Source of the DNA: Adhaeribacter terrigena
Lineage (GTDB): Bacteria; Bacteroidota; Bacteroidia; Cytophagales; Hymenobacteraceae
Length of the DNA stretch: 64,000 nt
Direction of reading: 5' to 3'
NCBI RefSeq assembly: GCF_016623615.1
Contig: NZ_JAEHFX010000001.1
Coordinates: 930,001 to 994,000 of the forward strand
Shown here: positions 19,234 to 21,806 of the stretch, piece after piece
Layout: the number at the start of each line of letters is the position of its first letter
How positions within the stretch are numbered: the first letter of the stretch is position 1
Program-made: the position numbers and the translations under genes
The notes under the pieces: generated by a model
The model's database searches: none
What the model saw: only the letters and a program-made list of their open reading frames with translations
Told to the model about the DNA's origin: nothing

Positions 19234-21180
19234 ATGAAGCTTTTTAGGAACTGGAATACGAAAGAATGGGCCGTTTTTGCAACGGCCTGTTTGTTTATAT
19301 CGGCCTGCGTTTTTATAGGCTGCTCCGGAAACGGTAGCAAAAATGAGGAGAAAACTGCTGCTACGGTTTCGCAAACCGGTTATCTGAACCACAGCCATGA
19401 AGTGCATTATACGGGCATGAAAAGCTGCGTTTCCTGCCATCAGGACATTTACCAGACTTACCTGGAAACCGGAAAAGCGCGTTCCTTTCACCTGCCGGAC
19501 CCAAAAGACCAGATCGAGAATTTTGCAGCCAAACCGGTTTACGATAAATTCTCCGACCTGAGCTACACGGCGTTCTGGCAAGGCAATGATATGTACATTT
19601 CCGAATTCCGTTTGCAGGGCAAAGACACGGTGCATTACCGCGCTGAAAAAATTGATTTTGTAATTGGCTCCGGAAACCAGACGCGCTCCTATATTTTTGA
19701 AAGTAACGGGTATTTCTATGAAATGCCGATAACCTGGTACGTGGGGAAAAAGATCTGGGACCTGAGCCCGGGCTATGAAAACGGCGCCAATTCCGGTTTC
19801 AGCCGCACCATTGGGCAGCAGTGTTTAGAATGCCATAATTCCGATAATAAATTCGTAGAAAATTCGGTAAATAAATTTACGAGCGTAGGCTTAGGTATGA
19901 GTTGCGAAAAATGCCACGGCCCCGGCGAAGCGCACGTAAAACTGATGCAGCAAGGTTCGAAGGAAAGTATTAAAAACAGCATCGATTACAGCATTGTAAA
20001 CCCTGCGCATTTGCCTATTCAATTGCAGTTCGATGTTTGCCGGCAATGCCACCTGGAAGGGTTAACGGTACCGAAAATGAATAAAAAACTCGTAGATTTC
20101 CGGCCGGGTTTGCCGCTGAACAGTTTTGTAGATGTGTTCATTCCGGTGCAGAATATGAGCGTTCCGGCCTTTGGTTTTGCTTCGCACGCAGAACGTTTGC
20201 AGCAAAGCCCTTGCTTTATTGGTTCGGGCGAAAAACTGACTTGTAATACCTGCCACGATCCGCACAAAGCCCTGAAAGGCAATTCGCTGCTGTTTTACGA
20301 CGAAAAATGCCAGGGCTGTCACGCGCCCGAAAAAATGGTAGACCCGCACAAGAACGTGAAAATTGCCGGTCAGAACTGCGTAACCTGCCACATGCCAAAA
20401 TCGGGCACTACCGATATTCCGCACGTTTCCAGCACCGATCATTTTATCCGGAAAAAAGCGGAAACCGAGCCGATCACCGTTTCTAAAAACCGGCTGGTTT
20501 CGTTCAAGAGCTTTACTTCCAAAGAAAATTTATCGGAAACGGACCGCAGCCATTTGCTGGCCAACATGCTGTACTTCGAGCAGAATGAGCAGAACCCGGA
20601 ATACCTGGCGCGCATTGTAAAGTTTCAGAAAAACCTGGACCGCGACGAACAAATAAAACTGGCTTACCTGCGTAAAGCTGCTCCCGAACCGGAATGGAAT
20701 AACCTGACGCCGGCGCAGATATCTGAACCATACACGGCATTTTATTTGTCGCAATTATTCCGGAATAACCCGGAAAACGCTATTGCTTTTGCCCAAAAAA
20801 GTACGCAACTGGCACCCGCCAATTTAGATTTCCGTTTCCGGCTGGCTGAACTTTACGACGATTTCGGGCAGAAGCAACTGGCCGAGGAAAACTACCGCCA
20901 GGTACTGCAAATGGAACCTGGCTATAAAATGGCGCTGCTCAATTTAGGGTTCCTGCTCAGTCAGCACGGCGATTTTAAAAACGCGATAGATTTAACCGAA
21001 AAAGCCATAAAAGCTGACCCGAATTACACCCGCGCCTACGAAAACCGGATCAATATTCTGCTGCAAACCGGCCAGTTTCCGAAAGGGTTGGATGAACTGA
21101 GTAAACTGATCCGTAAATTCCCGCAAAACGCTAATTATAAAGCCCTTAAAAGCAGGGTGGAGGAAGCGATGCGGAATTAA
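19234..21180 (+). CDS. Heptahaem c-type cytochrome with C-terminal TPRs (lipoprotein)
   Basis: A 648-residue protein with a lipoprotein-type signal (VFIGC, Cys at about 30), so it is probably anchored in the envelope. Seven CXXCH haem sites occur in order: CVSCH (65-69), CLECH, CEKCH, CRQCH, CNTCH, CQGCH and CVTCH, all within the first 400 residues. TPR motifs fill the last 150 (SPENAIAFAQ-type helices, NYRQVLQMEPGYKMALLNLG, KAIKADPNYTRAYENR). The haem half resembles the cytochrome c554 / NrfA-related group, and no oxidoreductase partner is adjacent. It likely moves electrons at the periplasmic face; the donor and acceptor are unknown. Confidence 0.88.
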   Translation: MKLFRNWNTKEWAVFATACLFISACVFIGCSGNGSKNEEKTAATVSQTGYLNHSHEVHYTGMKSCVSCHQDIYQTYLETGKARSFHLPDPKDQIENFAAKPVYDKFSDLSYTAFWQGNDMYISEFRLQGKDTVHYRAEKIDFVIGSGNQTRSYIFESNGYFYEMPITWYVGKKIWDLSPGYENGANSGFSRTIGQQCLECHNSDNKFVENSVNKFTSVGLGMSCEKCHGPGEAHVKLMQQGSKESIKNSIDYSIVNPAHLPIQLQFDVCRQCHLEGLTVPKMNKKLVDFRPGLPLNSFVDVFIPVQNMSVPAFGFASHAERLQQSPCFIGSGEKLTCNTCHDPHKALKGNSLLFYDEKCQGCHAPEKMVDPHKNVKIAGQNCVTCHMPKSGTTDIPHVSSTDHFIRKKAETEPITVSKNRLVSFKSFTSKENLSETDRSHLLANMLYFEQNEQNPEYLARIVKFQKNLDRDEQIKLAYLRKAAPEPEWNNLTPAQISEPYTAFYLSQLFRNNPENAIAFAQKSTQLAPANLDFRFRLAELYDDFGQKQLAEENYRQVLQMEPGYKMALLNLGFLLSQHGDFKNAIDLTEKAIKADPNYTRAYENRINILLQTGQFPKGLDELSKLIRKFPQNANYKALKSRVEEAMRN

Positions 21181-21214
21181 TGTGCTGATGTGTTGATTGG
21201 CATAGTAGCAAAGT

Positions 21215-21282
21215 AAAGCGAAAGTAGCGTGATGTAGCGTAGGGTTTAAATTCTCTACGCTACATCACGCTACTTTCGCTTT
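21215..21282. repeat. Perfect 28-bp inverted repeat
   Basis: The left arm 21215-21242 and right arm 21255-21282 are exact reverse complements over all 28 bases, with a 12-nt loop. There is no T run, so it is not an ordinary terminator. It lies 35 nt past the cytochrome stop codon. Confidence 0.85.
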
Positions 21283-21286
21283 AAGA

Positions 21287-21316
21287 CAGTTTTTCGCCTC
21301 AAAACCCTACCGTTTA
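21287..21316. repeat. Dispersed core repeat, extended copy
   Basis: CAGTTTTTCGCCTC is followed by AAAACCCTACCGTTTA (21301-21316). Confidence 0.8.
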
Positions 21317-21346
21317 TAACCCTTTCCGGAAATTCCAGTTTAACTT

Positions 21347-21402
21347 AATCACTAATCACTAATCACTAATCACTAATCACTAATCACTAATCACTAATCA
21401 CT
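21347..21402. repeat. Eight perfect tandem copies of AATCACT
   Basis: A 7-bp unit repeated exactly eight times (56 bp), ending 5 nt before a GTG start codon. It is a likely site of slipped-strand length change in the leader or promoter of the VOC gene. Confidence 0.95.
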
Positions 21403-21407
21403 TTCCC

Positions 21408-21806
21408 GTGGAAATTCTGCAAATAAAAGAAACCTGTTTGTATGTGAAGGATCTGGATGCTACGCGGCAATTTTACGCCGGGAAGCTGGGGCTGGAAATT
21501 ATTGGCGAAGTGAAAAACCGCCACGTTTTCTTTCGGGCTGGAAAATCGGTTTTGCTTTGTTTCGATCCGGAAGCTTCTAAAAAAGGCGAAACCCTGCCGC
21601 CACATTACGGTACCGGAAATCTGCATCTCGCTTTTGAAGTTGCTCCCGACCGCTACGAAGACCAGAAAACCATTGTAAAGGCTTTGGGAATTGGCATTGA
21701 GCACGAACACGAATGGCCCAACGAACTCAAGTCATTTTACTTCCGCGACCCGGACAATCATCTACTGGAAATTGTAATGACGGGAATGTGGGAAAAGCAG
21801 ATTTGA
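21408..21806 (+). CDS. VOC family protein
   Basis: A 132-residue protein with two beta-alpha-beta-beta-beta modules (ETCLYVKDLDATRQFYAGKLGLEI, FYFRDPDNHLLEIVMTGMW). Candidate metal ligands are His in LHLAFEV and Glu in HLLEIV, as in glyoxalase and fosfomycin-resistance proteins. It starts at GTG 21408, five bases after the heptamer array, which makes the array part of its leader. Its TGA stop lies inside an AAATTTG-type repeat (CAGATTTGAAGATTTG). The substrate is not predictable. Confidence 0.82.
   Translation: MEILQIKETCLYVKDLDATRQFYAGKLGLEIIGEVKNRHVFFRAGKSVLLCFDPEASKKGETLPPHYGTGNLHLAFEVAPDRYEDQKTIVKALGIGIEHEHEWPNELKSFYFRDPDNHLLEIVMTGMWEKQI

Follow-up and report, generated by a model that had tools for sequence, protein, structure and literature searches.

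The inverted repeat studied here lies in a 64,000-nt stretch of the Adhaeribacter terrigena genome (the window, i.e. the whole stretch of DNA that was analysed), in the gap between a multihaem cytochrome gene and a glyoxalase-superfamily gene. An earlier note had described a perfect repeat with arms at 21215-21242 and 21255-21282 that follows a haem protein gene. We found that the repeat is real and one pair longer, with 29-nt arms that are 100% complementary and 12 nt between them, and that the upstream gene encodes a multihaem cytochrome with TPRs at its C-terminal end. From the stop codon of this gene to the palindrome the distance is 33 nt, and 124 nt separate the palindrome from the gene for a glyoxalase-fold protein downstream. 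The features, in window coordinates, are as follows.

19234-21180, plus strand: multihaem cytochrome / TPR protein gene, upstream of the palindrome
21214-21242, plus strand: left arm, 29 nt, the outer 20 nt private to the window copy
21234-21263, no strand: the window copy's 30-bp version of the family core GTAGCGTAGGGTTTAAACCCTACGCTAC
21243-21254, plus strand: tip GGTTTAAATTCT, 12 nt; the family consensus at the same place is GGTTTAAACC
21255-21283, plus strand: right arm, 29 nt, the exact reverse complement of the left arm
21301-21317, plus strand: variant of the 17-bp motif AAAANNATAGCGTTTTT with 3 mismatches, a neighbour outside the palindrome
21346-21402, plus strand: TAATCAC heptamer array, 8.1 copies, a neighbour outside the palindrome
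21408-21806, plus strand: glyoxalase-superfamily gene, downstream of the palindrome

The core repeat (the 17-bp motif) and the heptamer array that the earlier note placed beside the palindrome are both present; its view that the whole gap is structured DNA is only partly right, since it lumps together three unrelated repeats. The 17-bp motif AAAANNATAGCGTTTTT occurs (at up to 1 mismatch) at 870 places in A. terrigena vs 2 for the reversed control, at 96 places in A. soli and at a rate near background in 27 further relatives, and is a species-specific expansion. Within 464 kb (C11:530001-994000), its 79 places (0 for the control) are mostly intergenic, frequently no more than 150 nt from a gene end, and it sometimes forms inverted pairs that make terminator-like hairpins. 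The TAATCAC array precedes the glyoxalase gene; the same gap in A. soli (L111) has heptad-like arrays in opposite orientation at both edges, and many of the heptad-like arrays of A. soli occur as inverted pairs 15-200 bp apart.

We compared the window palindrome with all perfect inverted repeats (arms of at least 14 nt, loops of up to 30 nt) in the same 464 kb and found it to be the longest of 47, with an arm of 29 followed by arms of 23, 22 and 20; the others are mostly A-run/T-run terminator-like. Three shuffles of the 464 kb gave 0 repeats with arms of at least 14 nt (longest arm 11-13), and a search with the window arm (up to 3 mismatches) matched nothing else in the window except the opposite arm. 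Together these results rule out a chance origin. The statement that such a repeat is improbable without selection or recent origin holds in that the repeat is far beyond chance, but it leaves out the best-supported cause, arm copying, to which mirrored insertions and deletions point. The gap folded as RNA reaches -66.3 kcal/mol (z -9.2), and it gave sub-threshold Rfam matches only, mostly to miRNA families, as expected of a long hairpin, so we rejected membership of an Rfam family.

The centre of the palindrome is a variant of a self-complementary 28-bp core, GTAGCGTAGGGTTTAAACCCTACGCTAC, and the window copy has 30 bp in its place owing to the altered tip. This tip is altered with all 29 pairs intact, as expected if the opposite arm can correct stem bases only. 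When the genome was searched with the window locus, the matches were partial and confined to the centre; the search for other copies of the 28-mer that had been advised gave no second copy of the window arms, because arms differ between copies and what recurs is the central core alone. With up to 3 mismatches allowed, the core is found at 21 places in the A. terrigena genome besides the window copy (22 in all) and at 63 places in A. soli, the one further listed genome of the genus; a search with the reversed core gave 0 matches. At the same threshold it is absent from 35 other genomes of the family and has one match among 22 order relatives, and among 395 genomes sampled across the phylum it was matched in the A. 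terrigena genome only. A scan of 84,980 species genomes for the exact core returned A. soli and three MAGs (Sphingobacteriales TSM_CSS, Cytophagaceae CAN_BIN26 and Chitinophagales MAG-366). We discarded a phage origin, as the exact core is absent from viral_contigs. An assembly error, which had been named as the refutation of the repeat, is unlikely given the same behaviour in dozens of independent copies from two species.

For the analysis of the arms we gathered 66 distinct copies (22 from A. terrigena, 37 from A. soli as the fetched loci only, 6 from MAGs and 1 from an order relative), with copies alike over the core and 10 bp on each side merged into one. Core pairs are unpaired in 26/294 cases in A. 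terrigena vs 2/518 in A. soli, but the use of the exact core to fetch most A. soli loci biases these figures. A fairer measure is how many of all copies within 3 mismatches have an exact core: 38/63 in A. soli vs 5/21 in A. terrigena (p 0.005).

Around the constant core, the outer arms are perfect for 0-20 bp (median 8) and reach at least 3 bp in 58/66 copies; the exact-core copies have loopless half-arms of 14-33 bp. Over the 8 positions that flank the core on each side, the pairing rate is 0.826 in 46 of the 47 exact-core copies (one, at the edge of its locus, was dropped), compared with a mean of 0.350 and a maximum of 0.462 when arms were swapped between copies. With the MITE-linked copies removed, pairing of these 8 outer pairs is still 0.793 (n=35). 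All 46 arms are distinct, partly by construction since near-identical copies (core and 10 bp per side) had been merged. Uninterrupted pairing extends for 0-19 bp, and past the first mismatch it is 100/353 (0.28), the chance level; each arm pair is perfect up to an abrupt end. A single long ancestral palindrome in decay would instead predict scattered mismatches and residual pairing.

Changes in one arm are mirrored in the other. One locus is common to A. terrigena (L013) and A. soli (L080), and its arm differences are small insertions and deletions mirrored on both sides. The MITE-linked A. soli copies have a common background that allows comparison: L069 and L075 carry insertions of 9 and 8 bp, respectively, on both sides of the core, and L092 has a 1-bp deletion mirrored on both sides. 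The left arm of L094 carries sequence of the right-hand IS end, and in L070 it is the right arm that carries sequence from the IS end on the left. Mirrored insertions cannot arise from two independent point mutations but can arise from arm copying; hence, one arm was copied from the other. The mirrored multi-base changes expected of a palindrome maintained by template switching are therefore found in L013/L080, L069, L075, L092, L094 and L070.

Only two orthologous pairs were found, and these two copies common to A. terrigena and A. soli have flanks of 77-83% identity. Pairing is not kept in every copy: L034 of A. terrigena has decayed in place vs the perfect L065 of A. soli. At the window locus, A. 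soli has no palindrome and no arms, with a gap of 175 vs 239 nt between the same anchors, and the A. terrigena counterpart of L071 is empty as well; both empty gaps are too diverged to tell which flank was copied.

A gene associated with the core was found on a contig of the Sphingobacteriales MAG (L077), where exact cores at 244-271 and 791-818 bracket one minus-strand gene (296-733) for a 145-aa Y1 protein. This protein scores 101 bits for Pfam Y1_Tnp and 83.4 bits for the NCBIfam IS200 transposase profile (cut-off 55); its score for the REP tyrosine transposase profile is 26 bits, below the cut-off of 80. It has the motifs EDHIH, WQ and YIRNQQQHH, i.e. those of TnpA_Y1 subclass 1.2, a match by motifs and length. 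The L077 MAG, which could be mis-binned, has the only tnpA locus with this exact core, and relatives of its protein are present in 179/395 genomes of the phylum. At positions 34-250 of L077, tandem units of ~53 bp, each with a half core only (CCGTAGCGTAGGGT), adjoin the transposase unit.

We fetched 30 related tnpA loci and scored 24, the other 6 being dropped for want of a recognised ORF; 22 of the 24 have the Y motif. An inverted repeat lies on some side of the gene in 14/24 and on both sides in 7/24, and the same inner 9-mer palindrome is found on both sides in 6/24, the remaining 18/24 having no such pair. The corresponding counts among 346 control genes of the same chromosome as the window were 118, 13 and 2, so that 6/24 vs 2/346 gives a Fisher p of 1e-6, a rough value as relatives and controls come from different genomes. 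In genome G155, the core is ATAGCGATGGGTTT-N-AAACCCATCGCTAT, close to that of the window family, and the palindrome occurs at 15 places, three of them around tnpA. We read 14 distinct copies there and found 11 intact, with an arm extension of 0-6 bp. G155 thus holds an independent family that repeats the L077 pattern.

The A. terrigena genome has 0 Y1 genes; hence, its copies would be orphaned and decaying. A. soli has 7 Y1 genes, two of them with the subclass 1.2 Y motif; the six regions around the 7 matches contain no core, and any hairpins present there are of other kinds, as is the case for both genes with the Y motif. We rejected an A. soli RAYT as the mobiliser, since no core lies near the RAYT-like genes (~180 aa), and such hairpins as accompany some of them are of other kinds. 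The A. soli loci L188 and L189 carry genes for 182-aa REP tyrosine transposases (113 bits with NCBIfam for the one checked) with flanking hairpins of the GTTTCGGACA/TGTCCGAAAC and CTTCCGGACAT/ATGTCCGGAAG types; copies of that repeat lie near some palindromes (L055, L061, L093 and L094).

We propose, at a probability of roughly 0.6, that the window repeat belongs to a dispersed REP-like palindrome family that was spread by a Y1 transposase of the subclass 1.2 type and perfected by template switching during replication. A small Y1 (HUH) single-strand transposase with subclass 1.2 motifs would have dispersed the core hairpin (CGTAGGG-TTTAAA-CCCTACG; 5' foot GTAG, 3' foot CTAC) in Adhaeribacter genomes; judging by the association of core and gene, this is probably how it moved. 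A core that landed beside unrelated DNA would then be a site at which the replication fork folds back, where the new strand may snap back, copy the neighbouring sequence inverted and return to its template (quasipalindrome template switching). The palindrome would gain locus-specific arms in this way, and later mismatches would be repaired from the opposite arm, such that both arms evolve as mirror images. The mirrored arms are observed, and from their sequences we infer the template-switch mechanism.

The palindrome repeated at both ends of several subclass 1.2 genes would be a candidate substrate for this subclass. The family would also document template switching as it occurs in nature, in dozens of independent palindromes that have one core in common and arms that were each written separately; from some of them one can read which way a copying event ran and how long it was. 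We extend the proposal more tentatively, at somewhat less than even odds, to palindromes throughout Bacteroidota, which subclass 1.2 Y1 transposases may mobilise and which may then grow mirror-image arms from neighbouring DNA; if so, the host receives from a mobile element inverted repeats that differ from locus to locus.

Among the alternatives, the one that survives best, though unlikely, is that the core goes into pre-existing palindromes exactly at their centre, so that the arms are older hairpins and arm copying is unneeded. Some arms do resemble old terminators (L098 and L100), and 14 of the 36 arms of at least 8 nt have a second TAGC foot, 8-10 nt further out than the TAGC of the core (mean of 1.07 and maximum of 5 over 2000 shuffles). 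Together with a weak TCTCC consensus that adjoins the core, this foot suggests that part of the family has common longer ancestors or nested insertions. However, loopless palindromes with a half-length of at least 8 are rare (7 in 80 kb of intergenic DNA), arm lengths are continuous from 0, and no empty site with both arms joined was found. The flank-to-flank copying in L094, L070 and L092 also argues against such insertion.

Slightly less probable still is that the hairpins are terminators or stabilisers of mRNA 3' ends whose pairing is kept by compensatory mutation. Gene context fits this explanation: no copy is centred in a gene (0/56 classifiable copies; 10 of the 66 are too near a locus edge to classify), in two cases a stem overlaps a predicted gene end, by 9 and 19 nt, and 19/53 copies lie between convergent genes (binomial p 5e-5; 6 edge cases omitted from 59). 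The RNA hairpin of the window copy is also very stable, and a terminator consensus scan flags one loose match there, with the stem counted to 20 pairs. As the earlier note had observed, no T run follows this stem directly (TTTTT starts 6 nt beyond it); it is not a plain terminator, and we rejected an intrinsic terminator for want of an adjacent U tract. Most copies likewise lack one, with TTTT at the stem end on 34/132 sides vs 0.18 at random intergenic sites (p 0.02), so we took transcriptional effects as secondary; any effect on the cytochrome mRNA (3'-end protection or weak termination) is taken as a side effect. In addition, point compensation cannot yield mirrored insertions or deletions, selection on the RNA leaves the abrupt arm ends unexplained, and the A. 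terrigena copy L034 has decayed in place.

A. soli has an IS of ~0.83 kb with ends AGAAGCTATCTCATAAAT and a transposase split over two ORFs (L144/L145 and related loci), and several kinds of MITE derived from it, some of which are complete and bear the palindrome. We consider it improbable that the palindromes at large are internal parts of such MITEs that were spread by this IS. An IS-like end does lie within 130 bp of 14/66 copies (vs 5/660 control positions), and these copies, near an unrelated IS or MITE end, could have been carried by that element. The other 52/66, including the window copy, have no such end; nor do the MAG copies, and many copies of the IS end have no palindrome. Outside the arms, no direct repeat beyond chance marks a target-site duplication (k=2 in 5 and k=3 in 2 of 63). 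Given the count of 14/66, we rejected the MITE as a general vehicle. That all copies stem from a recent burst and are as yet undecayed is the least credible explanation, for all the exact cores of A. soli, because arms differ from copy to copy, two copies common to both species have flanks of 77-83% identity, and the window copy has an altered tip on a perfect stem.

The transposon-spread family with copied arms that we propose resembles the REP elements of the TnpA_REP/RAYT systems (GTAG REPs, with REPINs/BIMEs), which are described as short, intergenic and multicopy, with GTAG at the hairpin foot and a Y1 gene flanked by copies (PMC3733652, PMC6006769). It is likewise a short palindrome dispersed between genes, with 22 copies in A. 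terrigena and 63 in A. soli. In the definition of GTAG REPs given in PMC3733652, an unpaired GTAG stands at one end only of a stem of 5-13 bp with a loop of 2-20; in contrast, the GTAG of the present family is paired with CTAC, and its palindromes are 28-66 bp and often loopless. The outer arms also differ per copy, unlike those of REPs, and a cognate flanked Y1 gene in the same genome was seen only in the L077 MAG, not in A. terrigena. The partner gene carries subclass 1.2 motifs, unlike the RAYTs of class 2.

According to the survey of Quentin et al. (2018, PMC6006769), TnpA_Y1 subclass 1.2 occurs in Bacteroidetes and has a median length of 148 aa and the motifs DH[IV]H, WQ and Y---Q--HH; the L077 protein (145 aa, all three motifs, Bacteroidetes) agrees with this description. 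The same account gives subclass 1.2 generally without IS200-type terminal structures, lists no REP for it and leaves its transposases without a substrate, whereas several members found here are flanked by repeated perfect palindromes.

Searches of open-access full texts with related terms gave no paper on this palindrome family. Sponge mitochondria are reported to have repetitive hairpin-forming elements (PMC2800124) that, like the present family, are mobile and intergenic and have spread repeatedly; their stems are conserved and their loops vary, whereas here the core is conserved and the outer stems vary. The copying of an arm as its reverse complement corresponds to quasipalindrome template switching, in which reverse-complement copying is described to create, extend and repair hairpin stems (Monttinen and Loytynoja 2022, PMC8794818; for E. 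coli, PMC7202029). Those reports concern single loci or rRNA stems; in the present case, template switching would have shaped a whole mobile family.
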